From Azospirillum lipoferum 4B (GTDB taxonomy: Bacteria; Pseudomonadota; Alphaproteobacteria; Azospirillales; Azospirillaceae), in assembly GCF_000283655.1 (NCBI RefSeq), contig NC_016622.1:1128501-1192500 (forward strand): a DNA stretch of 64,000 nt, in the 5' to 3' direction. The notes beneath the pieces were generated by a model. The model searched no databases and was not told the origin of the DNA. It saw nothing but the letters and a program-made list of their open reading frames with translations. Numbering within the stretch: the first letter of the stretch is position 1; each line of letters begins with the position of its first letter. Both the position numbers and the translations under genes were made by a program. This document shows, in pieces, positions 5,874 through 64,000 of this stretch.

Positions 5874-6935
<1,062 letters not shown>

Positions 6936-7032: not shown

Positions 7033-8445
7033 ATGCTCCACCGCCGCCGCGCGCCGCTCCTCGCCGGTCTTGCTGCCATGTCCACCGCTCTGGTCCTGAC
7101 CATGACCGGGCCGTCGGGCGCGCAGACCGGCTCCCCGCCGCCGGCCGCCGCCAATGCTGCCGCCCCTGCCGCCGCCAATGCTGCCATGCCGTCCGCCTCC
7201 GACCCCTTCGCGGTCTCCGGCGTCCGGGTCGACATCAACGGCAGCAACCCGACCACGGTCCGCGATCAGGCGATCCGCGAGGCGCAGGCCAAGGCCTGGG
7301 CGGAGCTCTACCGCCGCCTCGTCCCCGGCGGCACCCCGCCGCGCCTGTCGGACAATGAGATCGCCAAGCTGGTCCAGGGCTTCGAGATCGACGATGAAAA
7401 GGTGTCGGCCAGCCGCTATGTCGGCGCCATCACCGTGCGGTTCCGTCCCAATGCGGTGCGCGACGCGCTCGGCCAGAGCGGCGGCGCCACCCAGTATGTC
7501 GAGCCGCCGGCGCGCCCCTTCGTCGTCCTGCCGGTGACCCAGAGCGAAGGGCGCATCATCCTGTGGCAGGACCGCACCCCCTGGCGCGCGGCATGGGAAG
7601 CACGGCAGCCCGCCGCGTCCCTGGTTCCGCTGGTGCTGCCGGATGGTGAACTGTCCGACGCCCAGGCGATCAGCGGCGAGGATGCGGTCGCCGGCAATGC
7701 CGAGGCGCTGGGCCGCATCGCCCAGGCCTACAAGGCCGGCGGGGTCGTGGTCGCCCGCACCGATCTGCCGGCCAACGGCCCGGATCCGGCACGCGGCATG
7801 ACGGTGGATGTCACCCGCTACGGGCTGGACGGCACACGCGACAATCAGGTCGTGCAGGTGAAGGGCGGCAGCAGCGCCGACGACGTGCTGACCCGCGCGG
7901 TCGCGGCGGTCGGCAGCCAGCTGGACGAGTCCTGGCGGCGCGAGCACACCACCGCGACCGGTCCGGAGCAGAACACCCTGGTCCGCATTCCGTTGTCGGC
8001 GGTGAACGACTGGGTAGAGACGCGCAAGCGGCTTTCCTCCGTCAATGCGGTGACCCGGACCAACCTCATCTCCATCAGCCGCAGTGAGGCGCTGATCACC
8101 CTGACCCATCGCGGCGATCCCGAGCAGCTGGCCCAGGCGCTTGCCCGCCAGGATCTGGGCCTTGCGCGCACGGCCGCGGCGGCGCCTGCCGGTTTTCCGG
8201 CCGCCAATCCCGGCGCGCCGCTGCCGGTTCCCGCCGCCGACTGGCAGCTGACGCTGCTGCCGCGCGGGTCGGGTGCCGCATCGGCCGGCGCCGTTCCGTC
8301 CTCCGCTTCGCCGGTTGCTTCCCCGATCTCGGCCTCTCCGACCTCGCTGGCGCCGTCGGCGCCGCTCGACGCCGGCGCGCCAGTCGGCACGCTGGGCGCG
8401 CCACCGCGCAATCTGGGAACGCTGCCGGCCAAGAGCCTGCCGTGA
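7033..8445 (+). CDS. DUF2066 domain exported protein
   Basis: This is a 470-residue protein of unknown function. It has an N-terminal signal peptide (RRRAPLLAGL followed by a hydrophobic stretch ending SGAQ), then an Ala/Pro-rich linker, then the DUF2066 start FAVSGVRVDINGSN with QAIREAQAKAWAELYRRL. The C terminus is a low-complexity Ala/Ser/Pro tail. Start 7033 places the signal peptide at the N terminus; an upstream start adds a non-signal extension. Its stop overlaps the next gene's GTG by four bases, indicating translational coupling with the phosphatidyltransferase gene, an arrangement common in Rhodospirillales. Confidence 0.75.
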   Translation: MLHRRRAPLLAGLAAMSTALVLTMTGPSGAQTGSPPPAAANAAAPAAANAAMPSASDPFAVSGVRVDINGSNPTTVRDQAIREAQAKAWAELYRRLVPGGTPPRLSDNEIAKLVQGFEIDDEKVSASRYVGAITVRFRPNAVRDALGQSGGATQYVEPPARPFVVLPVTQSEGRIILWQDRTPWRAAWEARQPAASLVPLVLPDGELSDAQAISGEDAVAGNAEALGRIAQAYKAGGVVVARTDLPANGPDPARGMTVDVTRYGLDGTRDNQVVQVKGGSSADDVLTRAVAAVGSQLDESWRREHTTATGPEQNTLVRIPLSAVNDWVETRKRLSSVNAVTRTNLISISRSEALITLTHRGDPEQLAQALARQDLGLARTAAAAPAGFPAANPGAPLPVPAADWQLTLLPRGSGAASAGAVPSSASPVASPISASPTSLAPSAPLDAGAPVGTLGAPPRNLGTLPAKSLP

Positions 8446-9002
8446 GCGTTCCGAACATCATCACCTTTCTGCGCATCCTGGCGGTACCGGCCGCGATGTA
8501 CATGATCCTGACCGGCAGGATGGAGTGGGCCTTTGCCCTCTTCGTCGCCGCCGGCCTGTCCGATGCGCTGGACGGCGCCATCGCCCGCATGTTCCGGGCG
8601 CGCACGGTGCTGGGCGGCTATCTCGATCCGCTGGCCGACAAGGCGCTGATCGTCGGCGTGTACGTCGCGCTGGCCTGGGTCGGTGCGATCCCGTTGTGGC
8701 TGGCGATGATGGTGATCTTCCGCGACATCATGATCATCGGCGGCGTCATCCTGCTGTTCACGCTGAAGGAGACGCTGGCGATGCAACCGCTCTACATCAG
8801 CAAGGTGAACACGGTCGTCCAGATCGCGCTTGCTGCCGCGGTGCTGGCGCCGCCGGCATTGGGCCTGCCGGAGATTCATCTGTACGGGTGGGAAGTGGTC
8901 GATGTGCTGGTGTACGCCTGTACGGTGACCACCGTGCTGTCCGGCCTGCTGTACGCGCGGCGCGGCGCCCTGCTGTTCAACCGGCTCGGCGGTGTTCCAT
9001 GA
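8442..9002 (+). CDS. CDP-alcohol phosphatidyltransferase family membrane enzyme
   Basis: This is a 186-residue integral membrane enzyme with a perfect CDP-alcohol phosphatidyltransferase motif, DG-x2-AR-x8-G-x3-D-x3-D, seen as DGAIAR followed by GGYLDPLADK. It transfers a CDP-linked phosphatidyl group to an alcohol. The sequence fits the PgsA/cardiolipin-synthase-like subgroup, so phosphatidylglycerophosphate or cardiolipin synthesis is plausible, but the acceptor cannot be fixed. GTG start overlaps the previous stop (GTGA) and its own stop overlaps the next ATG (ATGA). Confidence 0.85.
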   Translation: MSVPNIITFLRILAVPAAMYMILTGRMEWAFALFVAAGLSDALDGAIARMFRARTVLGGYLDPLADKALIVGVYVALAWVGAIPLWLAMMVIFRDIMIIGGVILLFTLKETLAMQPLYISKVNTVVQIALAAAVLAPPALGLPEIHLYGWEVVDVLVYACTVTTVLSGLLYARRGALLFNRLGGVP

Positions 9003-10066
9003 CCGCGGCCAAGCAGCTCCGCTTCTGGCTGATCGGGCTAGGGCTGTTTGTCCTTGCCCTGTGGTTGCTGGCCGGCATGCTCCTGCCCTTCGTGGTCGGG
9101 CTGGCCATCGCCTATTTGCTCGACCCGCTGGTCGACCGGCTGGAGGCGGCGCGGCTGCCGCGCTGGCTCGGTACCACGTTGGTGTTGCTGGGATTCCTGC
9201 TGGTCCTGGTGCTGATGTCGCTGCTTCTCGTGCCGTTGGTGCAGGGGCAGATCTCTCATCTGCTGGAGGTGCTGCCGACCTACGCCACCCTGGTGAAGGA
9301 GCGGCTGATCCCGGCGCTCGACCGCTTCATCCACCGGCTTCCGGCCGACGATGTGGAGCGGCTGCGCGCCGCCGCCGGCAATTACGCAGGCGAGGTGGCG
9401 GGGATGGTGGGACGCATCGTCTCACACATCCTGTCGGGCGGGCTGGCGGTGTTCGACATCGTCACCCTGATGTTCATCACCCCCATCGTCGCCTTCTATC
9501 TGATGCGCGACTGGGACGTGATGGTGGGGAAGGTCGATTCGTGGCTGCCGCGCCAGCATGCCGAGACCGTGCGCGAGCAGGCGCGCGAGGTGAACATGAC
9601 CCTGTCCGGCTTCGTGCGCGGGCAGGCGATGGTCTGCCTCGTGCTGGGCGTCTTCTATGCGCTGGCGCTGTCGGCGGCCGGGCTGGATTTCGGGCTGGTG
9701 ATCGGCCTGATGGCCGGGATTCTGTCCTTCATTCCCTATGTCGGCAGCCTGTTCGGCTTCGTCGCCAGCACCGGGCTCGCCCTGCTGCAGTTCGACGAGC
9801 TCTGGCGGGTCGCCGTCGTGGTCGGCATCTTCCTGTTCGGGCAGGCGGTGGAGGGCAATGTCCTGACGCCGAAGCTGGTCGGCGACAAGGTTGGGCTGCA
9901 TGCGGTCTGGGTGATGTTCGCCCTGCTGGCCGGCGGCAGCCTGTTCGGATTCGTCGGCGTTCTGCTGGCGGTTCCGGTGGCTGCGGTGATCGGCGTGTTG
10001 ACCCGCTTCGCATTGCGACAGTATCTCTCAAGCCCGTACTACCGCGGCACCGACGCGGAACGCTGA
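8999..10066 (+). CDS. AI-2E transporter / PerM family membrane protein
   Basis: This is a 355-residue polytopic membrane protein with seven to eight hydrophobic segments and the family-typical region SFIPYVGSLFG near the C-terminal third, then EGNVLTPKLVGDKVGLHAVWVM. The PerM/AI-2E exporter superfamily includes TqsA and the sodium-proton antiporter-like YtnP group; the cargo is not predictable. The ATG lies in an ATGA overlap with the preceding gene. hdaA starts 13 bases after its stop. Confidence 0.85.
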   Translation: MTAAKQLRFWLIGLGLFVLALWLLAGMLLPFVVGLAIAYLLDPLVDRLEAARLPRWLGTTLVLLGFLLVLVLMSLLLVPLVQGQISHLLEVLPTYATLVKERLIPALDRFIHRLPADDVERLRAAAGNYAGEVAGMVGRIVSHILSGGLAVFDIVTLMFITPIVAFYLMRDWDVMVGKVDSWLPRQHAETVREQAREVNMTLSGFVRGQAMVCLVLGVFYALALSAAGLDFGLVIGLMAGILSFIPYVGSLFGFVASTGLALLQFDELWRVAVVVGIFLFGQAVEGNVLTPKLVGDKVGLHAVWVMFALLAGGSLFGFVGVLLAVPVAAVIGVLTRFALRQYLSSPYYRGTDAER

Positions 10067-11804: not shown

Positions 11805-12293
11805 ATGAGCATGCAGCAGAGCGTGGCGGTCCCCGCGGTCTACACCGACCTTGGCCGCGTCATGGAAAGCATCACCCGCCGCTTCCTCGACGTGCTTCGG
11901 ATGGAGCTGGCCCGGATCGGCGTGACCGACCTCAGCCCGACGCAGGCCCTGATGCTGCTGCACATCGGCACCGAGGAACTGTCGGTCCGCGATCTGCTGG
12001 AGCGCGGCTATTACCTGGGCTCCAACGCCTCCTACAATCTGAAGCATCTGGTGGAAGCCGGCTATGTCGACCGCAGCCCGTCACTGCGCGACCGGCGGGC
12101 CGCGCGGCTCAAGCTGTCGGAACAGGGGCTGGCCACCTGCGAGGCGCTGAAGAAGCTGGAAGCGGCGCGGGCCGACAGCCTGCTGCGCAGCGACAGCGAC
12201 GGCGCCGATTTCGAGACCACCTACCGCACGCTGCGGCGGCTGGAGCGCGCCTGGACCGACCTGATCCGCTACGACGACGCCGATCCGGCCTGA
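11805..12293 (+). CDS. MarR-type winged-helix regulator (LdtR-like)
   Basis: This 162-residue protein has a winged helix with the recognition region YLGSNASYNLKHLVEAGYVD and wing DRRAARLKLSEQG. This region closely follows the LdtR group of alphaproteobacterial MarR proteins, which in Liberibacter and Sinorhizobium controls an L,D-transpeptidase gene and stress responses. No L,D-transpeptidase gene is adjacent here, so the target is unknown. It is preceded by an inverted repeat and followed by a short membrane peptide gene. Confidence 0.82.
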   Translation: MSMQQSVAVPAVYTDLGRVMESITRRFLDVLRMELARIGVTDLSPTQALMLLHIGTEELSVRDLLERGYYLGSNASYNLKHLVEAGYVDRSPSLRDRRAARLKLSEQGLATCEALKKLEAARADSLLRSDSDGADFETTYRTLRRLERAWTDLIRYDDADPA

Positions 12294-12473
12294 ATTCCGG
12301 CTGGAAATTTTCGAGCGTCCGACACGTAATCTTATACTCACCTACCTGTTCGATCTGTGTCCGGAAGGGAACAATCGGGCTCATAACGGGAACATAGGCA
12401 GAACTATGCGGTTGCCGTTCGGCGTCCGTTCTGGTAGCCATACTGGAACAAGACGCGAACAATGGAGGTTGGC

Positions 12474-12572
12474 ATGTCGGTTCTGGCTTTCCTGCGTGAA
12501 TGCATGACCCTCGCCCTGTTCCTCGCCGTGCTCTATGGCTGGGCAACGGTCGGGCCGATTCTGATCGGCTGA
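12474..12572 (+). CDS. 32-residue predicted membrane peptide
   Basis: A short reading frame starts MSVLAFLRECMTL and continues through one hydrophobic helix to a GPILIG end. It has a strong ribosome binding site (GGAGG, about seven bases before ATG), which makes it more convincing than its size alone. No family is recognised. It lies between the LdtR-like regulator and the AAA ATPase gene on the same strand, and could be a small inner-membrane protein. Confidence 0.6.
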   Translation: MSVLAFLRECMTLALFLAVLYGWATVGPILIG

Positions 12573-12777
12573 GCGGGCCTATGGCGTCGGGGCGGCAGCC
12601 CCGTCGGAAGAGGTCCCCGAACGAGGGATGCCGCGTCGGTATTATATCCGAAATCCCAGCCCACCCCGGCCGGCACAGCGCTTACATCGTGAACACGCGG
12701 AACCGTTCCTGGCCCGACAGAGAAGCCGAAAGGGGAACGGCTCCGCGAACGCCGACAACGCGTGGGGATTGGGACGG

Positions 12778-14454
12778 ATGCGGAATTTCTTTCGGAAGCG
12801 TCGCTCGGCCGCTGTGGCGGACGAACGGATGCCGGCGGCTGGCGGTGCGGGTCTCGGCGGTAGCGGACTTGGTGGCGGCCCGGCCGGCAGCGGCCTTGCT
12901 GGAAACGGTCCCTCCGGCAGTGGAATGGGCATGACCGGACCGGGAATGTCTGGGCCGGGGATCTCAGGCCCTGGGCCTGCCGCCGCCAACTTCCCCAATA
13001 CACCCGGATTCTCCCGGCCCGGCGGGACGCTCCTGCGTCCGGTCGACGGGGGGCATGGCGGAGGACTGGGACGCGGCGGGTTCGAGGCGATGCGCGGTCC
13101 CGCAGCACCGCGTCAGCCCGACATCATCGACAACGACGCCACCGGCGACCGCCGCGGCCACATGTTCCCGCAGCCCGGCGGGCGCGACGCAGAAAGCGAG
13201 CACGACCTGCCGCGCTTCACCATGTCGGTCAACGGCGGCTATCGCGGCGGCATGGGCGCCAACGCGCCCGCCATGCTGAAGGGCCTGACGCCGGAGCTGA
13301 ACGGCCTGCTGCGCGAAGCCTTCACCCCGACCCGGCCGAAGCAGCAGTTGAACGGGCTGTTCATCGGCCGCAACGACACGCTCCGCCGCATCATCTCGGC
13401 AATCGAGGAGGAGAGGGCGCATGTCATCCTGTATGGCGACCGCGGCCGCGGCAAGACCTCCGTCGCCAATGCGATCGAGAAGATCGCCGGGCAGGCCGGC
13501 TATCTGTCGTTGAAGCTGACCTGCAGCGGCGAACTGAGCTTCGAGGACATCTTCAGGCACTTCCTGAAGAAGATTCCTTCCACCTATTACCGCTCCGCGC
13601 TCGACAACCCGTTCGCGGCCCGTCGCAACTTCGCCAGCCTGAACGAGCTGCTGCCGGACGGCACCTTCAGCGTCACCGAACTGAACGAGGTGCTGGCTGG
13701 CATCCACGCCACCCATGTGTTGCTGATCCTGGACGAGTACGACCGCGTCCTGGACGAGGATTTCCGCAACAAGCTGGCGGAGCTGTTCAAGAACCTGACC
13801 GACAGCTCGATCCCCGTCACCCTGCTGGTGGTCGGCGTCGCCGAGAATCTGGACCAGTTGCTGGGCAAGCATCCGTCGATCCAGCGGTCGCTGGTGCCGG
13901 TGCATCTGCCGCTGATGACCGATCAGGAGATCGGCCGGCTGATCCAGGCCGGTGCCCAGAATGCCGGGATCGAGTTCGCGCCCGACGTGGTGCGGCGGAT
14001 CGCCGAGTTCGTGCGCGGGCTGCCTTACTACGCCCAGCTTCTCGGCCTGCATGCGGCGCGCAGCGCCGTCAGCCGCGGCAGCAAGCTGGTGGAGCGGCCG
14101 GATCTGGCCTATGCCGTCGCCCGCTGCCTGCAGGAGGCCGAGCGCGGCATCGTCGAGAGCTATGCCCGCGCGCTGGCCGCCGACCGCCGTGCGGAGCTGG
14201 AGGACGCGCTGCTGGCCGCCGCCCTGTGCCCGGCGGATGCCTATGGCGTGTTCGACCCCGACGATCTGGCGGGCGAAAGCGGCGAGTTGCCGAGTGCCGC
14301 GACGCTGGACCTGCTGAAACGCCTGACCCGCGAGGACCATGGCGGCGTCCTGGCCCCGATGGTGGAGCCGGGCCTGGAACGGTACCGCTTCCGCAATCAG
14401 ATGATGCGTCAGTACGTCCTGATGCGTCAGGCGAGCGAGCGCGGCCAGATCTGA
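12778..14454 (+). CDS. Orc1/Cdc6-like AAA ATPase with Gly-rich N-terminal region
   Basis: This is a protein of about 558 residues with two parts. The first 170 residues are disordered, with Gly/Ser/Pro repeats such as GSGLGGG and SGPGISGPGP. From about residue 195 follows an AAA_16/Orc-like ATPase: RPKQQLNGLFIGR entry, Walker A GDRGRGKTS, Walker B LLILDEYDRV, and a C-terminal winged-helix-like part. Such proteins are conserved in Rhodospirillales without known function. I prefer ATG 12778 (MRNFFRKRRS) to an upstream start at 12628, which would add 50 non-conserved residues. A terminator follows. Confidence 0.75.
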   Translation: MRNFFRKRRSAAVADERMPAAGGAGLGGSGLGGGPAGSGLAGNGPSGSGMGMTGPGMSGPGISGPGPAAANFPNTPGFSRPGGTLLRPVDGGHGGGLGRGGFEAMRGPAAPRQPDIIDNDATGDRRGHMFPQPGGRDAESEHDLPRFTMSVNGGYRGGMGANAPAMLKGLTPELNGLLREAFTPTRPKQQLNGLFIGRNDTLRRIISAIEEERAHVILYGDRGRGKTSVANAIEKIAGQAGYLSLKLTCSGELSFEDIFRHFLKKIPSTYYRSALDNPFAARRNFASLNELLPDGTFSVTELNEVLAGIHATHVLLILDEYDRVLDEDFRNKLAELFKNLTDSSIPVTLLVVGVAENLDQLLGKHPSIQRSLVPVHLPLMTDQEIGRLIQAGAQNAGIEFAPDVVRRIAEFVRGLPYYAQLLGLHAARSAVSRGSKLVERPDLAYAVARCLQEAERGIVESYARALAADRRAELEDALLAAALCPADAYGVFDPDDLAGESGELPSAATLDLLKRLTREDHGGVLAPMVEPGLERYRFRNQMMRQYVLMRQASERGQI

Positions 14455-55590: not shown

Positions 55591-56126
55591 CTGCAGGGGG
55601 AATGAATGCGGACCTGACCCTGGTTCTCGGCGGCGCCCGCTCCGGCAAGAGCCGCTATGCCGAAGGGCTGGTGACTGCGCTGGTCGGTCCGCGTGTCTAC
55701 ATCGCCACCTCGCAAATCTGGGACGCGGAGATGGCGGAGCGGGTGGCGAAGCACCGCGACGACCGCGGCCCCGACTGGACGACGGTGGAGGAGCCGCGCG
55801 ACCTGACCGGCGCGCTCCGCCGCCACGCTGCCGACGGCACCGGCGTGCTGGTCGATTGCCTGACCCTGTGGCTGACCAACCTGATGATGGCGGAGGCCGA
55901 CATCGCGGCGGAGACCGCGGCGCTGGTGGAGCTTCTGCCGACGCTGCCCGGCCGGGTGGTCCTGGTTTCCAACGAGGTCGGGCTCGGCATCGTTCCCGAC
56001 AATGCGCTGGCGCGCCGCTTCCGCGACCATGCCGGCCGCCTGCACCAATCCATTGCGGCCGTTGCGCCGCGCGTCGTGCTGACCGTCGCCGGTTTGCCGA
56101 TGTTCGTGAAGGGAACCCCCGCATGA
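55587..56126 (+). CDS. cobU: Adenosylcobinamide kinase / guanylyltransferase
   Basis: This bifunctional enzyme phosphorylates adenosylcobinamide and then adds GMP, in late cobalamin synthesis. The P-loop is LVLGGARSGKSRYAE at the N terminus, with LVDCLTLWLTNLMM and VLVSNEVGLGIVPDN downstream. The 179-residue length is normal. ATG 55587 overlaps the cupin stop (ATGA); the next ATG at 55602 is possible. It is followed by cobO and cobQ in overlapping or nearly overlapping order. Confidence 0.95.
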   Translation: MTAGGMNADLTLVLGGARSGKSRYAEGLVTALVGPRVYIATSQIWDAEMAERVAKHRDDRGPDWTTVEEPRDLTGALRRHAADGTGVLVDCLTLWLTNLMMAEADIAAETAALVELLPTLPGRVVLVSNEVGLGIVPDNALARRFRDHAGRLHQSIAAVAPRVVLTVAGLPMFVKGTPA

Positions 56127-56746
56127 CCGACAACACGGTCGATACCGACGAACTGAACCGCCGCCATGCCGAAAAGATGAAGCGGCGCAAGGCGTTGCAG
56201 GAGCGGGCGCTCGCCTCCAAGACGGTGGAGAAGGGCCTGCTGATGGTCCACACCGGCAAGGGCAAGGGCAAGTCGACCGCGGCCTTCGGCCTGATGATGC
56301 GGGCCGTCGGCCATGGCATGCGGGTGGGCATGGTGCAGTTCGTCAAGGGCGCCTGGTCCACCGGCGAAACGGTGGCGCTGGAGCGCTTCGAGGATCTGGT
56401 CGATTTCCACACGATGGGCGAGGGCTTCACCTGGGATACCCAGGACCGCGCCCGCGACATCGCCGCCGCCGAGGCCGCCTGGGCCAAGGCCAAGGAGTTG
56501 ATGGCCGACCCGCGCTATCGCCTGATCGTGCTGGACGAGCTGAACATCGTGCTGCGCATGGATTATCTGCCGCTGGAGGAGGTGCTGGCGACGCTGGCCG
56601 CCCGCCGGCCGGACCTGCATGTCTGCATCACCGGCCGCAACGCCAAGCCGGATCTGATCGCCGCCGCCGACCTCGTCACCGAGATGACGCTGGTCAAGCA
56701 CCCGTTCGAGGCCGGGGTGAAGGCCCAGGCCGGCATCGAGTTCTAA
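56123..56746 (+). CDS. cobO: Cob(I)yrinic acid a,c-diamide adenosyltransferase
   Basis: CobO/BtuR transfers adenosyl from ATP to the corrin cobalt. The P-loop is [18 protein letters not shown], followed by [15 protein letters not shown] and [14 protein letters not shown]. The 207-residue length fits. Its start overlaps cobU by four bases (ATGA) and cobQ begins four bases after its stop, so the three are cotranscribed. Confidence 0.95.
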
Positions 56747-56750
56747 GGCC

Positions 56751-58226
56751 ATGCCGTTGAAGGCTATGCAGTCTCGCGCGATCATGCTGCAGGGCACCGG
56801 CTCCGACGTCGGCAAGTCTCTGCTGGTGGCCGGACTGTGCCGTGCGCTGGTGCGGCGCGGGCTGACCGTCCGGCCGTTCAAGCCGCAGAACATGTCCAAC
56901 AACGCCGCGGTGACGGCGGACGGCGGCGAGATCGGCCGCGCCCAGGCGCTCCAGGCGCGGGCCTGCGGCGTGGCGCCCAGCGTCCACATGAACCCGGTGC
57001 TGCTGAAGCCGCAGTCGGACATCGGCAGCCAGATTGTGGTGCGCGGCGTGGTGGTAGGCACCGCACGCGCCGCCGACTATCAGGCGCGCAAGCGCGAACT
57101 GCTGGGCACCGTCCTGGACAGCTTCGAGCGGCTCAAGGCCGAGGCCGACATCGTGGTGGTGGAGGGTGCCGGCAGCCCGGCCGAGGTCAATCTGCGGGCC
57201 GGCGACATCGCCAACATGGGCTTTGCCACCGCCGCCGACGTGCCGGTTCTCCTGGTCGGCGACATCGACCGCGGCGGCGTGATCGCCAGTCTGGTCGGCA
57301 CCCACGCACTTCTACCGAAATCTGAGCAGGAGCGTATCAAGGGCTTTCTTATCAACAAGTTCCGCGGCGATGTTCGCCTGTTCGATGAAGGGCTGCGGAT
57401 CATCGAAAGCCACACCGGCTGGCGCGGATTCGGCGTGGTGCCCTGGCTGAAGGAGGCGGCGACCCTGCCGGCGGAGGATGCGGTCGCGCTCGACCGGCCA
57501 CGGGCTGCGGGTGACGGAGCATTGCGGATCGCGGTGCCGATGCTGTCGCGGATCGCCAATTTCGACGACTTCGACCCGCTGGCGCAGGAGCCCGGCGTCG
57601 CCCTGACCATGGTGCGTCCGGGCCAGCCGCTGCCGGGAGACGCCGATCTGGTGATCCTGCCCGGCACCAAGGCGACGATTGCCGACCTTGCCTTCCTGCG
57701 GGCGCAGGGCTGGGACATCGACCTGCTGGCCCATTGGCGGCGCGGGGGGCGGGTGCTGGGGATCTGCGGCGGCTATCAAATGCTGGGGCGGCGCATCGCC
57801 GATCCCGACGGCATCGAAGGCCAGCCGGGCGAGGCCGCCGGGCTCGGTCTGCTGGATGTCGAGACGGTGCTGAAGGGTCCGAAGGTGCTGGAGGAAGCCC
57901 GCGGGCGGGAGCGCCGCACCGGCGCGGCGGTGGCGGGGTACGAGATGCACATGGGCCGCACCGACGGGCCGGACCGGGCGCGGTCGATGCTGGAGCTTGC
58001 CGATGGCGCGACGGACGGCGCGGAGTCGGCGGACGGCCGGGTCGCCGGCTGCTACCTGCACGGGCTGTTCGGCGCGGACGGCTTCCGTGCGGCCTATTTG
58101 CGGGGAATGGGCAGCGGGTCCGAACTGGCTTATGGGGTGGCTGTGGAGCGGGCGCTGGATGCGGTCGCGGATCGGCTGGAGAGTGTGGTGGATGTGGAGG
58201 GGTTGCTGGCGGTCGCGGAGGGGTGA
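56751..58226 (+). CDS. cobQ: Cobyric acid synthase
   Basis: CobQ amidates four side chains of adenosylcobyrinic acid diamide using glutamine. The N-terminal synthetase has [14 protein letters not shown] and [16 protein letters not shown]. The glutaminase domain has the nucleophile in [11 protein letters not shown] and the late His in [12 protein letters not shown]. Length 491 residues is normal. It ends the cob operon and is followed by a dispersed repeat. Confidence 0.95.
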
Positions 58227-58241
58227 GGTATCGGTGCTGAT

Positions 58242-58366
58242 GCCCCCTCCCTAACCCTCCCCCGCCTTTGGCGGGAGAGGGAACTCCGCCGCATATTTGT
58301 AAACGTCACCTGTCAAGCATCCTACCCCCTCTACCGCCGAAGGCGGGGGAGGGATGGGGAGGGGGC
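58242..58366. repeat. Dispersed intergenic repeat of the second family, copy 2
   Basis: GCCCCCTCCCTAACCCTCCC on the left and GGGGAGGGATGGGGAGGG on the right frame the element, with an internal GGGAGAGGGAACTCCGCCGC and AAGCATCCTACCCCCTC, as at 41406-41525. The middle differs between copies (CATATTTGTAAACGTCACC here). It lies between cobQ and ispH. Confidence 0.75.
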
Positions 58367-58391
58367 AACAACCAAAATGGCGCCTCTCCCC

Positions 58392-59369
58392 TCAAACCGT
58401 CTCCCGCTCCACCGATAACGCGCGCGGCAGCTTGAAGACGATGTTCTCGGTCGCGGTGCGCAGTTCCTCCACCGTCACGTCGAATCGCGCGCGTGCCGCC
58501 TCGATGACTTCCTCCACCAGCACTTCCGGTGCCGACGCGCCGGCGGTGATGCCGAGCCGGGAGACACCGGCCAGCGCGTTCCAGTCGATCTCGGCGGCGC
58601 GCTGGACCAGCTGGGCGGCCGGGCAGCCGTGGATCTTCGCCACCTCCACCAGCCGCTTGGAGTTGGAGGAGTTCGGCGCGCCGAGAACCAGCAGCGCGTC
58701 CACCTTCGGCGCGATGGCCTTCACCGCCGCCTGACGGTTGGTGGTGGCGTAGCAGATGTCCTCCTTCTTCGGACCGGCGATGGCGGGGAAGCGGGCCTGG
58801 AGCGCGGCCAGGATCTCCGTCGTCTCATCCACCGACAGCGTGGTCTGGGTGGCGTAGGCGAGGTTCTCAGGATCACGGACCTCCAGCGTCGCCACGTCGG
58901 CCACCGTCTCCACCAGCACGACGGCACCGTCGGGCAGCTGACCCATGGTGCCGATCACCTCCGGATGTCCGGCATGGCCGATCAGGACGATCTGGCGACC
59001 GTCCTCGAAATGGCGTTCGGCCTCGCGGTGGACCTTGCTGACCAGCGGGCAGGTGGCGTCGAGATAGAACAGGCCGCGCGCCTCCGCCGCCTGCGGCACC
59101 GATTTCGGCACGCCATGGGCGGAGAACACCACCGGGCGGCCATCCGGCACCTCGGTCAGTTCGTCGACGAAGACGGCGCCCTTGGCTTCCAGGCTTTCGA
59201 CCACGAATCGGTTGTGGACGATCTCGTGCCGGACATAGACCGGCGCCCCGAAGCGGTCCAATGCGGTCTCGACGATCTGGATCGCCCGGTCCACGCCGGC
59301 GCAAAAGCCGCGCGGTGCGGCCAGCAGGATCGTCAAGGGCTGGAGTGCCGGGGAATTGGTGGTGGTCAT
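58392..59369 (-). CDS. ispH: 4-hydroxy-3-methylbut-2-enyl diphosphate reductase
   Basis: IspH is the last enzyme of the MEP pathway to isopentenyl diphosphate. The three cluster cysteines are C23 ([12 protein letters not shown]), C107 ([12 protein letters not shown]) and C206 ([13 protein letters not shown]), with the E-x-T-x-N region TTNRQAAV. Start 59369 ([10 protein letters not shown]) is the normal length; the longer frame adds unrelated sequence. Confidence 0.96.
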
Positions 59370-59522
59370 ATGCGCTGTTCCGCCCTTGCGTGGAAGACGT
59401 GCCCTAAGGTGGCCCTGTGCCGAACCGTCGCAAGGGATAGAACCGCCGCGCGGTCTTGTGCCGGTCAAGCTGGGACACTAAAGTCGCGATCCAACAGCCC
59501 GTTAACCGATCAGGCCGAACCG

Positions 59523-60125
59523 ATGGACCGCCGCGACCGTAAACTAGGAACCCCCGCCCGGAAAAGCCCGCTGGCGTCCCTGATGCGTAAGAGCCGCCCT
59601 GCGCTGCTCGCCGCCGGGGCCGTTGCGGTGCTGTCCGGCTGTTCCGGCATGGGCCTTGGACCGAACGACGCGGCGGAAGCGGCGCTGGCCTGCCCCAAGG
59701 TCAACATCGTCCGCGACCTCCAGGAGGTCGCGGTCTTCCGCCCCGGCGGCAAGGATCTGACCGATCTGGAATCGCGCGCGGCGCTGGTCGACTACACCGG
59801 CAACTGCGAATACACCAGCAGCGGCGTCACGGTGAACGTGAACGTCTTCCTGGTGGCCGAGCGCGGCCCGGCCCTGCAGGGCAACACCGCCAAGTACCAG
59901 TATTTCGTGGCGCTGGCCCAGCCGGACGACACGCTGGTGTCGAAGGCCTATTTCGACACCGACGTGACCTTCGTCACCGGCCAGCCGCGCGCCGGCACCA
60001 GGGAAGAGCTGGCCCCGAAGATTCCGCTGCCCAAGGATGGCAACGCCAAGGACTGGAAGATCTATCTCGGTTTCCAGCTGACGCCGGAACAGCTGGAGTT
60101 CAACCGGACGCAGGTGAAGAAGTAA
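59523..60125 (+). CDS. Probable lipoprotein of unknown function
   Basis: This is a 200-residue protein, or 180 from the second ATG at 59583, where MRKSRPALLAAGAVAVLSGC gives a textbook lipoprotein signal with LSGC. The body contains KVNIVRDLQEVAVFRPGG, NVFLVAERGPALQGNTAKYQ and the end PEQLEFNRTQVKK. No family is recognised with confidence. The 59583 start fits a signal peptide best. Confidence 0.75.
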   Translation: MDRRDRKLGTPARKSPLASLMRKSRPALLAAGAVAVLSGCSGMGLGPNDAAEAALACPKVNIVRDLQEVAVFRPGGKDLTDLESRAALVDYTGNCEYTSSGVTVNVNVFLVAERGPALQGNTAKYQYFVALAQPDDTLVSKAYFDTDVTFVTGQPRAGTREELAPKIPLPKDGNAKDWKIYLGFQLTPEQLEFNRTQVKK

Positions 60126-60141
60126 GAATCTGCGATAAATT

Positions 60142-60195
60142 ATTGATGGCTTCACGTGCATGTGTTGAAAATGTTAGGAGCGTGAAGCCATCAAT
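60142..60195. promoter_or_regulatory. Perfect 15-bp inverted repeat in front of the OLD-like gene
   Basis: ATTGATGGCTTCACG at 60142-60156 is the exact reverse complement of CGTGAAGCCATCAAT at 60181-60195, with a 24-base spacer. A TTGAAA in the spacer and a CATCAAT in the right arm are spaced about like -35 and -10 elements. It could be an operator or the terminator of the upstream lipoprotein gene. Confidence 0.6.
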
Positions 60196-60228
60196 GATGC
60201 GAACCGCAGCTATTCCGAGAATGTTTCC

Positions 60229-61983
60229 ATGATTAACTTTCTGAAAGTAACAAATTTTCGCCAGTTTCAGAGCTTCTCTGTCAAGCTAAAAAAAGGAAAT
60301 ATTCTGGTCGGCCCGAATAACGCTGGTAAATCTTCTTTGTTAGATGCTTTCAGGATACTTGAAGCATGCTTGCGTTATGCAAAGACAAAAAATCCAGAGG
60401 CTATTGATGTGTATGGCCATGGAGTTTTCCGGGGTTATCGCCTCCCTGAAACAACTATTCCAGTAAAATTGGCGAATATAACGCGAGATTATAGCGACGA
60501 AGATGCTATCCTAGAATTTCGAACCTCAAATGGAGTGGATATATATATTCGTCTTCACCACAGCAAGCGAGCCACATTTTATATCGATGCCCCTGGCTTC
60601 AAGACCCATACGAGCAAGAGTTTTAGAGAGGCTTGCGCAATTGATTTCGTCATAGTTCCAACTCTTTCCCCGCTGGAAATGGAGGAAAGGTTTGTTGAAG
60701 ACGAAACAATACGTAGAAATGAGGGCACCCGCACCTCCAGTAGGCATCTTAGGAACGTTTGGTATAGGAAAAGAGATGAAGAATTTAGTCAATTCCGAAA
60801 AGATGTATCTGATGCATGGCCAGGAATTTCTATTTCGAAACCTGAAATTGGGAACTCCATTCCCAGAATAGTTGATATGTACTATAGTGAAAACAGAGTT
60901 GAGCGTGAAGTTAGTTGTGCGGGATTTGGTTTTCAGGTCTGGTTGCAAATACTCACCCATCTGACCAGAGGGCTTCCTGGGGCGACGCTCATCATTGATG
61001 AACCTGACATATATCTTCATCCAGATCTGCAAAAAAGGTTGCTAAAGACCATTTCGGAACGATATGAGCAATTTATTATGGCTACTCATTCTGTCGAAAT
61101 AATAAATGATGCAGATGTTTCAGATATAGTGTCTATAAGTAAGAATTATAGATCAGGAAAACGAATAAGCACAGATGAAGATTATATTAAGCTCCATCGC
61201 TATATTGGGTCATCGGAGAATACTGATTTTGCTCGATTAGCTCGATCAAAGAAGGTTATTTTCGTTGAGGGTAAAGATGGAAAATTAATCAGAAAGCTGG
61301 CAAAGAAAATTGGGTTAGTTAATCTATCTGATGAGCAGAATACGCCTATTATTCAGCTGGGTGGCTTTTCGCAATGGCGTCGTGCCGCTGATGCAATCTG
61401 GGCCTTCCGCAACGTTTTATCACTTGAAATCGAAGCCTTCTGTTTATTTGATCGAGACTATCGCTGTAAAGAAGAGGTTTCTGAATTTGTCAACGATCTT
61501 GAGGGGCGCGGAATATCCTGTGAAGTCTTGGTGGGAAAAGAAATCGAAAATCATATCTTAATTGAGAACGCTTTGTTGAGAGCTATTCGAAAGCGCGTGA
61601 CCCAACGGGGTGGTGAGGCCGAATCTCTAGACGAGAAAATTTTACGTTCTATCATTATAGAAATCTCCTCTGATATGGAAGAGAGCGTGAGGGCCAATAG
61701 AGCTAAACACTACACAGATTACTTTGAAAAGAGAGAGCCAGGCGTTGATCGTTCTTCAATACTGCTAAGGCATGGAAAATTATTTTCCGGAGATTGGAAA
61801 AAATACAGTGAAAAGATTTTGATGCTGCCGGGAAAGGAAATGCTGTCAAGAATAAATGAAAAAATTCAATCTCAATTACAGGTGAGTCTCACCGAATCTA
61901 TGATAATTGACGCAATTAACGTTGACGAGATTGACCCTGATTTTTTGCGAATATTACAGAGGCTCGATGCTTTTTGCTTGTAG
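60229..61983 (+). CDS. OLD-family ATPase-TOPRIM endonuclease, likely horizontally acquired
   Basis: This is a 584-residue two-domain protein. The N-terminal ABC-type ATPase has Walker A GPNNAGKS (28-35), Walker B LIIDEPDIYLHPD near 253 and the switch histidine in MATHSVEI. The C-terminal TOPRIM domain has the acidic sites VEGKD (near 346) and FDRDYR (near 408). This is the single-protein OLD nuclease layout, known from anti-phage and anti-plasmid defence. The gene is markedly AT-rich with AGA/ATA-type codons unlike its neighbours. No helicase or restriction partner gene is beside it. Confidence 0.85.
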   Translation: MINFLKVTNFRQFQSFSVKLKKGNILVGPNNAGKSSLLDAFRILEACLRYAKTKNPEAIDVYGHGVFRGYRLPETTIPVKLANITRDYSDEDAILEFRTSNGVDIYIRLHHSKRATFYIDAPGFKTHTSKSFREACAIDFVIVPTLSPLEMEERFVEDETIRRNEGTRTSSRHLRNVWYRKRDEEFSQFRKDVSDAWPGISISKPEIGNSIPRIVDMYYSENRVEREVSCAGFGFQVWLQILTHLTRGLPGATLIIDEPDIYLHPDLQKRLLKTISERYEQFIMATHSVEIINDADVSDIVSISKNYRSGKRISTDEDYIKLHRYIGSSENTDFARLARSKKVIFVEGKDGKLIRKLAKKIGLVNLSDEQNTPIIQLGGFSQWRRAADAIWAFRNVLSLEIEAFCLFDRDYRCKEEVSEFVNDLEGRGISCEVLVGKEIENHILIENALLRAIRKRVTQRGGEAESLDEKILRSIIIEISSDMEESVRANRAKHYTDYFEKREPGVDRSSILLRHGKLFSGDWKKYSEKILMLPGKEMLSRINEKIQSQLQVSLTESMIIDAINVDEIDPDFLRILQRLDAFCL

Positions 61984-62034
61984 AATACCTGTACTATGGG
62001 GCACCGACCATCTCGCCGTCGCCGAACCCCCCAA

Positions 62035-62063
62035 TTGACAAACCTGTCTATTCGCGACAGTGT
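62035..62063 (+). promoter_or_regulatory. Predicted gcv operon promoter
   Basis: A perfect TTGACA lies at 62035-62040, 17 bases before a weak -10 window (CAGTGT). It is about 45 bases upstream of the riboswitch, which fits a promoter for the gcv operon. Confidence 0.45.
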
Positions 62064-62085
62064 GCCGCCATCACGCCGATGATCC

Positions 62086-62310
62086 CTCGCGGGAGAGATC
62101 GTCCGGGAGCTTGTCGCAAATCGGCAGGTTCGCGGGCGGCGCCGAAGGAGCAACCGCCCCCGGAAACTCTCAGGCAAAAGGACCGCAAGGGGATAAGGCA
62201 ACTCTGGAAAGCAGCCTCGGCGCCCAGTCGCCGCGACTCACCGAAGGAGTAAACCGGGTGCCCGGCTCGACCGGGCGGCGGTGAATCTCTCAGGTCCAAG
62301 ACAGAGGGGG
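62086..62310 (+). promoter_or_regulatory. Tandem glycine riboswitch
   Basis: Two glycine aptamers lie in tandem. Aptamer 1 contains GCCGAAGGAGCAACCGCC and GGAAACTCTCAGGCAAAAGG. Aptamer 2 contains CACCGAAGGAGTAAACCGGG and GTGAATCTCTCAGGTCCAAG. The pair directly precedes gcvT, as in other bacteria where glycine turns on the cleavage operon. Confidence 0.93.
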
Positions 62311-62364
62311 CAGCTTCCTGCGCCGATCCCGGCGTGGGCGCTAGAACCCTGTCGGAGGACCCGC

Positions 62365-63477
62365 GTGACCGAGGCCGCAACCGCTCTCAAGACCACTCCG
62401 CTGCACGCGCTCCATGTCGAGCTTGGCGCCCGCATGGTGCCCTTCGCCGGCTATGACATGCCGGTGCAGTATCCGCTGGGCATCCTGAAGGAGCACCAGC
62501 ACACCCGCGAGAAGGCCGGGCTGTTCGACGTGTCCCACATGGGCCAGGTCCGCCTGACCGGTGACGATCCCGCCGCCGCCCTGGAAACGCTGGTCCCCGG
62601 CGACATCAAGGGGCTGGCGCAGGGCCGCATGCGCTACACGCTGTTCCTGAACGAGCAGGGCGGCATCCTCGACGACCTGATGGTGACCAATGCCGGCGAC
62701 CATTTGTTCCTGGTGGTGAACGCCGCCTGCAAGGAGCAGGATGTCGCCCATCTGCGCGAGAAACTGGCCGGCAAGGCCGAGGTGGAGCTGCTTGACGATC
62801 TGGCGCTGATGGCGCTCCAGGGTCCGATGGCGGCCGAGGTGATGGCCCGCTTCGTGCCGGAAGCCGCCACCATGAAGTTCATGAGCTACCTGTCCGCCAC
62901 CTTCAAGGGTGTGCCGGTGATCCTGACCCGCTCCGGCTACACCGGCGAGGATGGCTACGAGATCTCCTGCGACAAGGCCGATGCGGAGATGATCGCCCGC
63001 GCGCTGCTGGCGGAATCCGAAGTCGAGGCGATCGGGCTGGGTGCGCGCGACTCGCTGCGGCTGGAGGCCGGGCTCTGCCTCTACGGCCACGACATCGACA
63101 CCACCACGACGCCGGTCGAAGGCGCGCTGGAATGGACGCTGCCGAAGCGCCGCCGCGCCGAGGGCGGTTTCCCCGGCTACGACATCATCCACCGGCAACT
63201 GACCGAGGGCGCCACGCGCCGCCGCGTCGGCATCCAGCCGGAAGGCCGCCAGCCGGCCCGCGAGCACACGGAAATCCAGGACGCCAACGGCACCCGTATC
63301 GGCGAGATCACCAGCGGCGGCTTCGGCCCGACCGCCGGTGCGCCGGTCGCCATGGGCTATGTCGACATCGCGAACTCCGCGGTGGGCACGCCGCTGACGC
63401 TGGTGGTGCGCGGCAAGCCGCTGCCCGCCCGCGTCGCCGCCACGCCCTTCGTGCCGCAACGCTATTACCGGGGCTGA
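62365..63477 (+). CDS. gcvT: Aminomethyltransferase (glycine cleavage T protein)
   Basis: GcvT transfers the methylene unit from the lipoyl H protein to tetrahydrofolate. The protein (370 residues) shows LFDVSHMGQVRLTG, GGILDDLMVTNAGDHLFLV, RSGYTGEDGYEI, and the end AATPFVPQRYYRG. GTG 62365 is chosen because GGAGGA lies about six bases upstream; a longer frame would read through riboswitch sequence. gcvH and gcvPA follow. Confidence 0.95.
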   Translation: MTEAATALKTTPLHALHVELGARMVPFAGYDMPVQYPLGILKEHQHTREKAGLFDVSHMGQVRLTGDDPAAALETLVPGDIKGLAQGRMRYTLFLNEQGGILDDLMVTNAGDHLFLVVNAACKEQDVAHLREKLAGKAEVELLDDLALMALQGPMAAEVMARFVPEAATMKFMSYLSATFKGVPVILTRSGYTGEDGYEISCDKADAEMIARALLAESEVEAIGLGARDSLRLEAGLCLYGHDIDTTTTPVEGALEWTLPKRRRAEGGFPGYDIIHRQLTEGATRRRVGIQPEGRQPAREHTEIQDANGTRIGEITSGGFGPTAGAPVAMGYVDIANSAVGTPLTLVVRGKPLPARVAATPFVPQRYYRG

Positions 63478-63528
63478 CGCCTCGGATCCCCGACCACAAG
63501 CAACCGTGTTGAACAGGGAATCCTTCAG

Positions 63529-63903
63529 ATGACCAAGAAATTCACCAAGGACCACGAGTGGGTTCAGGTCGACGGCGACGTCGCCACCGTCGGCGTCACC
63601 GATTTCGCCCAGAGCCAGCTGGGCGACGTGGTGTTCGTCGAGCTGCCCGAGCCCGGCCGCGAGCTGGAGCAGGGCAAGGAAGCCGCCGTCGTCGAATCGG
63701 TGAAGGCTGCCAGCGACGTCTACGCCCCGGTCTCCGGCACCGTCATCGAGGCCAACCAGGCCCTGGTTGACGACCCGTCGATGGTCAACAGCGCCGCCGA
63801 GGGTGAGGGCTGGTTCTTCAAGATCCAGTTGAAGGACGCCTCCGAACTCGATGGTCTGATGGACGAATCGGCCTACAATGCCTTCGTGGAGGAATCCCAC
63901 TAA
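63529..63903 (+). CDS. gcvH: Glycine cleavage system H protein
   Basis: GcvH carries the lipoyl arm that shuttles the aminomethyl group. The lipoylated residue is K59 in [10 protein letters not shown]. The protein (124 residues) begins [12 protein letters not shown] and contains [22 protein letters not shown]. It is 51 bases behind gcvT and gcvPA begins one base after its stop. Confidence 0.97.
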
Positions 63904-63904
63904 C

Positions 63905-64000
63905 ATGCGTTACCTGCCCCTGACCGAGGCCGACCGGCAGTCCATGCTGGAGGCCGTCCGCGCAACATCGGTCGAAGACCTGTTCCGCGATGTTCCAAAG
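63905..64000 (+). CDS. gcvPA: Glycine dehydrogenase subunit 1, N terminus (runs off the window)
   Basis: Only the first 32 residues are present: [20 protein letters not shown] and [12 protein letters not shown]. This is the typical start of the alpha chain of the two-subunit PLP-dependent P protein, rather than the single-chain GcvP. It follows gcvH in the same operon. Confidence 0.88.

Follow-up and report, generated by a model that had tools for sequence, protein, structure and literature searches.

Two kinds of single-gene ATPase–TOPRIM protein have already been described (PMC10568477, PMC9122126): stand-alone OLD proteins (Class 1), such as P2 Old, T. scotoductus OLD and E. coli YbjD, and fusions of AriA with AriB, the two components of PARIS, for which single-gene examples are on record (PMC9122126). 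Class 1 OLD genes have been reported in 0.45% of bacterial genomes, and isolated OLD genes have been called poorly understood (PMC13261556). AriB cleaves tRNA (PMC12409363), and P2 Old has been cited as a tRNA cutter (PMC13261556). In this study, we analyzed a window of 64,000 nucleotides from Azospirillum lipoferum 4B (contig NC_016622.1, positions 1,128,501 to 1,192,500), which contains a lone gene for a 584-residue ATPase–TOPRIM protein (60229–61983, forward strand). This gene is foreign, solo and sporadic. We favor, with modest confidence, the reading that it encodes a stand-alone, horizontally moved antiphage effector in which one chain combines an SMC/Rad50-like ATPase head with a two-metal TOPRIM nuclease similar to AriB and DUF4435.

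Catalytic residues and place among ATPase–TOPRIM proteins

The open reading frame (ORF), which begins with ATG in the window's ORF list, comprises an ABC/AAA_21 ATPase head (residues ~1–310) fused with a TOPRIM nuclease half (residues ~311–584), as indicated by the ORF list, Pfam and structure models. Pfam matched AAA_21 (83.1 bits, E = 4.9e-23, cut-off 27) and AAA_15 (77.1 bits, E = 2.7e-21), and OLD-like_TOPRIM was matched at 21.5 bits (E = 3.5e-4), below its own cut-off of 23.2. Conservation was counted in a 75-row alignment of the window protein, L101, L184 and 72 of the best 80 genome loci; these 80, to which the results are confined, came from 168 relatives found in the genome collection with a five-row model. 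Loci with stops or with cut or short frames (L124, L137, L145, L148, L163, L173, L174 and L177) were left out of the alignment, as were L183, which lies on the same contig as L101, two incomplete viral loci (L102 and L185), and L015, L085 and L086.

Both catalytic cores are intact and conserved, with all 75 rows identical at K34, D257, E258, H287, E347, D408, E438, E440 and K536, and with D410 and E416 kept in 74/75 and D350 in 73/75. The Walker A motif GPNNAGKS (residues 28–35; 60310–60333, forward strand as for all motifs below) is invariant at G28, N30, N31, G33, K34 and S35, and the Walker B/DE box IDEPDIYLH (residues 256–264; 60994–61020) at D257, E258 and H264. Between them, GFGFQVWL (residues 232–239; 60922–60945), invariant at G232, G234, Q236 and W238, is by its position the putative ABC signature. 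The nuclease half contains the first acidic TOPRIM motif VEGKD (E347, D350; 61264–61278) and the DRDYR motif (D408, D410; 61450–61464). They are followed by a DUF4435-like KEIEN motif (E438, E440; 61537–61551), which aligns with IEN of DUF4435 proteins and may correspond to the S/T-x-E that binds metal B in OLD nucleases, and by a PGK motif (61828–61836), which aligns with GK of DUF4435 proteins and supplies K536 as a candidate catalytic lysine.

OLD nucleases have been described as using a glutamate and DxD for metal A, an acid four residues after the glutamate and S/T-x-E for metal B, and a lysine or arginine in addition (PMC7049728). Each of these metal ligands seems to have a positional counterpart in the family, although the acid after the first glutamate lies at +3 and not +4. 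In the AlphaFold model the acids are placed as a TOPRIM domain requires, because E347 ends strand 342–347 and D408 comes right after strand 402–407; the full-chain model has a predicted template modeling score of 0.67, and how its two halves pack against each other is uncertain. The chain thus carries Walker A, Walker B and an H-loop in an N-terminal ABC ATPase, and E and DxD in a C-terminal TOPRIM domain, as expected of the OLD family in its broad sense. These results bear out the first-pass annotation, which had placed an ATPase and a TOPRIM domain with intact Walker A, DE box and acidic residues in one chain; the misalignment of the acids that it had named as a possible weakness was seen neither in the model nor in the near-invariant columns.

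No curated model specific for the family was found in Pfam, PADLOC, NCBIfam or PHROGs. Near-equal PADLOC matches were obtained for NsnB (85 bits), GajA (81.7), AriA (81.5), Old (79.5) and AriAB (73.5), none of them specific (best 25 of 143 families at E ≤ 1), all NCBIfam matches among those listed fell far under their cut-offs, and PHROGs gave at best 111.7 bits, to a family with no assigned function. The nuclease half aligns with DUF4435 over its length, and AriB is the structurally nearest solved nuclease to it. Pfam DUF4435 was absent from the matches of the window protein at E ≤ 1 and was not reached by 74 of the 75 members at E ≤ 0.001, and a viral structure library contained no match to the nuclease half at E ≤ 0.001.

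The family was placed on a quick comparison tree that has several long branches, Shimodaira–Hasegawa-like approximate likelihood ratio test (SH-aLRT) support only, and no row for P2 Old itself. The tree is also without GajA and retron rows, since scans with the GajA model PDLC00075 and the retron model NF038234 gave none at the cut-offs used, which, with no control match, is no evidence of absence; comparison-group rows with a stop, a fragment or no recovered frame were left out (L204, L212, L209, L192, L195 and L094). The 26 family rows and the 10 rows found with the PADLOC Old model each form one side of a branch (SH-aLRT 98 and 99), and the family does not group with the Old sequences as a Class 1 OLD would. 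It forms, on this tree, its own clade beside a second unnamed ATPase–TOPRIM family, F83 (L087–L093, L095, L096), which is its sister (support 92). The nuclease halves of the two align over 229 columns (E = 4.5e-14), whereas a two-row model of our family matches F83 weakly, at no more than 98.6 bits compared with 600 for true members; L091 of F83 sits on a long branch. This second family was noticed at L087–L096 in a phylum search, where eight of the 16 genomes matched belong to one genome family, f83.

Among described systems, PARIS likewise combines an AAA_21/AAA_15 ATPase with a TOPRIM nuclease, AriB, to which the nuclease half is nearest. The window protein differs from the PARIS fusion in its score with the AriAB model (73.5 bits versus 363.6 for L199, the one locus reaching that model at E ≤ 1e-40 in 249 genomes) and in its length (584 residues versus 694 model positions), and L199 falls outside the family on the tree, though on a very long branch. 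GajA of Gabija (Class 2 OLD) shares the ATPase and TOPRIM domains and weak profile matches, but no GajB-like helicase adjoins the window gene by eye in the ORF list; around the relatives, a RecD-like helicase (with a UvrD_C_2 domain in L129) lies within eight genes in 3/84 loci and is adjacent in 1/84. The retron Eco8 effector (Class 3 OLD) is matched weakly (45.6 bits versus a cut-off of 250), but no reverse transcriptase gene was seen by eye around the window gene. The first-pass annotation had also reported no GajB-like, reverse transcriptase or restriction partner, and we found none by eye among the ORFs of 56000–64000.

The strongest competitor to an AriB-like effector is an ordinary Class 1 OLD DNA nuclease, whose TOPRIM half would degrade DNA at ends or nicks and so guard against phages that block RecBCD-like repair. 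A RecBCD-guard role has long been proposed for P2 Old, and the family shares with Class 1 OLD the solo gene, the ATPase and TOPRIM domains and a counterpart for every metal ligand. It differs in the EIEN and PGK motifs of its nuclease half, which lies nearer AriB, and in standing apart from the Old-like rows on the tree. We regard this reading as unlikely, though far from negligible. The protein is not simply an OLD, as its nuclease half is more like AriB and DUF4435 than like Old or GajA; it is a stand-alone ATPase–TOPRIM enzyme placed between Class 1 OLD and fused PARIS. The earlier OLD-like label thus holds for the solo ATPase–TOPRIM architecture and not for the nuclease half or the position on the tree, and the suggestion of an undescribed system agrees with the lack of a specific curated model but is tempered by the two kinds of single-gene protein already described (PMC10568477, PMC9122126).

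A foreign insert and a scattered family

The GC content is 0.37–0.44 per 400-bp window over 60200–61999, compared with 0.64–0.73 in the flanks (57000–59999 and 62000–63999). The upstream gene ends with TAA at 60123–60125, and matches in the genus extend 1–5 bases beyond it; in the nearest genome (G001), where this gene is 95% identical, the match ends one base beyond the stop codon. Matches restart on the right at 62019–62034 in the best genomes, or possibly from 62008, going by a shared nonamer seen by eye. The genus comparison places the insert from about 60127 to somewhere within 62008–62018; the longest extent, 60127–62018, carries an uncertainty of at most 5 bases at its left end and ~10–15 at its right end. 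An AT-rich insert at 60126–61990 had been proposed, and these coordinates were right within about 30 bases. The insert takes the place of a short interval, which in several close relatives contains a palindrome pair by eye.

Core-like neighbors had been proposed on both sides. On the right lies a glycine riboswitch aptamer at 62080–62195 (RF00504, 65.7 bits), the sole Rfam match at gathering cut-offs in 58000–64000. On the left, the name lipoprotein for the 178-residue ORF (start chosen manually) comes from a signal peptide and lipobox-like start recognized by eye, and no NCBIfam model at E ≤ 1e-20 or Pfam model at E ≤ 0.001 matched it. The upstream flank was matched in 45/45 genus genomes (by a short weak match in G027), the downstream flank in 44/45, and a flank also in four Azospirillum plasmid records, with four records in the 90–95% identity band. 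The interval between flanks was read in 22 genus genomes (loci among L051–L080; first 1500 bases only of the three longest gaps) and measured 36–185 bp in 10, 334 bp in one and 1.0–2.2 kb, with other cargo, in 11. Eight of these 11 held an opposite-strand ORF of 275–280 residues, and the other three held, one each, a 242-residue ORF (GC 0.37), an ORF that resembled a methyltransferase by eye, and a further small ORF. The genus thus has a variable slot here, bounded by the lipoprotein-like gene and the glycine riboswitch. None of the 45 genus genomes searched encodes a full-length relative of the protein, so the presence of the gene at this place in all relatives, which the first-pass annotation had named as a refutation, was not observed. 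Twelve weak matches among 100 relatives (best 31 bits; three in the genus) were partial and in other frames, and were rejected.

The left end of the insert carries an 18-bp inverted repeat (60139–60198; 94% complementary, 24-nt loop) with 17 pairs, compared with a maximum of eight in 30 shuffles. No like palindrome was found upstream of 28 homologues examined, which rules it out as a family feature, and a plasmid search with it gave no match. A promoter scan returned nine sites versus 3.5 expected, and all three on the forward strand fall within the gene.

Single-sequence scans of genome and viral contigs with the window protein found no relative, whereas two-row and five-row alignment searches did. 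Among 398 phylum genomes there were two more full-length relatives (~600 bits), and 16 genomes had any match to the two-row model at E ≤ 1e-10. Thirteen plasmid records were matched, including two full-length relatives at 32–33% identity on Cupriavidus replicons, one of them broken by a stop; viral contigs yielded one relative at 37% identity in a 46-kb contig and another at 34% in a 16-kb contig. Hosts among the best 80 relatives include Proteobacteria, Bacteroidota, Acidobacteria, Planctomycetes and two archaea. Horizontal transfer of the family is likely frequent, because near relatives such as L111 and L113 sit in different orders on a 78-row tree (the 75-row alignment plus L015, L085 and L086). 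No description of the family was found in the literature searched; it may be one of the 11 uncharacterized OLD clades, U1–U11, that have been reported (PMC12796447).

This distribution bears on the possibility of a housekeeping or repair ATPase–nuclease with no role in conflict. Such a role would suit heads that resemble Rad50, SMC and RecF, and the OLD-family enzyme Cran1 is reported to act in cell-cycle progression (PMC12796447). The gene is, however, sporadic (a full-length copy in 0/45 genus genomes and 2/398 phylum-sample genomes) and foreign in base composition, and its close relatives are spread over different orders, all of which make a housekeeping role very improbable.

Neighboring genes and insertion footprints

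Neighbors were taken from a simple ORF caller (1078 ORFs at 84 loci). Among the 25 largest of 46 groups common to several loci there was no constant partner, so the family consists, like Class 1 OLD, of single genes. The largest groups were generic ABC ATPases at positions 5–8 (eight loci), lepA (six), carB (four), a short-chain dehydrogenase (four), response regulators (three) and a RecD-like helicase (three); a generic dehydrogenase-like pair also occurs at ±1 (L119, L176). The family gene has a mean GC of 0.454 versus 0.603 in the flanks, and is more than 5 points lower in 73 of the 82 loci with enough flank.

We defined orthologous neighbors as genes of at least 150 residues, with at least 40% identity, that are common to loci whose family proteins are less than 75% identical. 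They make up 11/83 neighbors at ±1 versus 5/631 at ±2 to 8 (Fisher p = 7.6e-8, a guide only, since the loci cannot be treated as independent samples and common genes are enriched in core genes). All 11 point their 3' ends at the family gene: carB (L110, L170, L179), lepA (L107, L125, L133, L136), thyX (L112, L134) and uvrB (L122, L180). For all neighbors of at least 150 residues, the 3' end faces the gene in 58/83 at ±1 versus 340/631 further out. Names were checked for L107 lepA, L110 and L179 carB, L105 smc, L112 thyX, L139 nadA, L138 uvrA, L122 and L180 uvrB, the L115 class II ribonucleotide reductase, the L114 dCTP deaminase and the L129 RecD-like helicase; the others are based on likeness to these. 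On the tree, adjacency to lepA occurs in three separate lineages, to carB in three and to uvrB in two; the two thyX loci are sister rows, and L105 and L085, the two smc loci, are nearly identical. In L112 and L134, thyX and the family gene run in the same direction with a 4-base overlap, as though translationally coupled. Directly upstream of the family gene, L170 (9127–9912) and L086 (3323–4111) encode a 262-residue protein with a sub-threshold HSDR_N_2 match (24.3 of 25 bits), a possible second component in that lineage.

Two loci carry a clear duplication of the target gene. In L139 a perfect copy of the final 52 bases of nadA, with its stop codon, lies beyond the family gene (9822–9873 and 12001–12052), giving a 2,179-bp unit with the family gene alone and no integrase. 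In the archaeal locus L179 a second copy of 197 bases from the 3' part of carB, 90% identical, lies 3.3 kb further on (6061–6255 and 9334–9530), and the unit also contains a PIN-domain gene. Several similar family genes share little DNA beyond the gene itself (L121/L123, 3 bases before and 23 after; L159/L175, 324 and 38; also L111/L113 and L123/L126), while other pairs, such as L160/L164 and L132/L133, share longer DNA and their sites.

Such traces could be read as those of a selfish single-gene element, whose nuclease, like a free-standing homing endonuclease, would promote its own insertion behind conserved genes, phage effects being secondary. Repeated adjacency to the same 3' ends in separate lineages, the two duplications, the solitary L139 unit, the little DNA shared beyond the gene, and the presence of thyX, dcd and nrdJ among the neighbors, genes of the kind favored by homing nucleases, all fit this reading. 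Most loci, the window included, nevertheless lack a target repeat: direct repeats of at least 32 bits across the gene (within 2.5 kb) occur in 9/74 loci versus 3/74 mismatched pairs (highest 34.2). When 19 core-gene neighbors were compared with the far flank, L139 and L179 scored far above shuffles, L115 (32 versus 28) and L170 (29 versus a shuffle maximum of 26) barely, and 15 not at all; the L170 case, a gapped chance match within another gene, was not counted as a duplicated carB end. Nor did the GC content of the last 150 bases of 17 neighbor genes give a clear signal of co-conversion at the 3' end (mean difference −0.02), and trans-acting integrases or homologous recombination would leave identical traces. 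The selfish-element reading is accordingly very improbable.

Further repeats were observed, none involving a core-gene target. L130 has identical 1,042-bp inverted copies (7495–8536 and 11898–12939) flanking the family gene, resembling a composite transposon; its carB lies five ORF positions upstream and is one of the five orthologous neighbors at ±2 to 8. In L175 direct-repeat copies of 47 bp (91%) lie on either side of the gene (9819–9865 and 12890–12936), the first at the end of a resolvase-like ORF (by eye). L151 contains many palindrome repeats, and L178, L126, L145 and L159 short repeats.

Proposed function and implications

For the favored antiphage effector, we propose that the ATPase heads would dimerize on ATP and keep the nuclease in check. 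A signal linked to infection, possibly a phage inhibitor of host defense, DNA ends or nucleotide depletion, would alter the state of the heads, after which the TOPRIM dimer would cleave nucleic acid, by analogy with AriB and P2 Old more probably host tRNA than DNA, and growth would halt ahead of phage release. Two-gene PARIS frees its nuclease; this switch is impossible here because both halves are one chain. The gene would spread as a small unit, often landing behind the stop codons of conserved genes.

The bias toward a few core genes and their 3' ends, seen repeatedly in lineages that are separate on the tree and accompanied at two loci by a duplicated target end, raises the question of how a lone gene moves so widely with almost no plasmid or phage record carrying the family and no integrase seen alongside. 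One speculative answer, to which we give a low probability, is a minimal mobile unit: a single ATPase–TOPRIM gene with no integrase of its own, directed to the stop-codon ends of lepA, carB, uvrB, thyX, smc and nadA across bacteria and archaea, its nuclease aiding its own spread. If this were true, a single enzyme would serve both defense and homing. Within a large defense superfamily, few members are as poorly understood as the stand-alone OLD proteins. Because this family seems to pair an AriB-like nuclease with its ATPase in a single short polypeptide, it would allow a switch like that of PARIS to be studied without the release of a partner.
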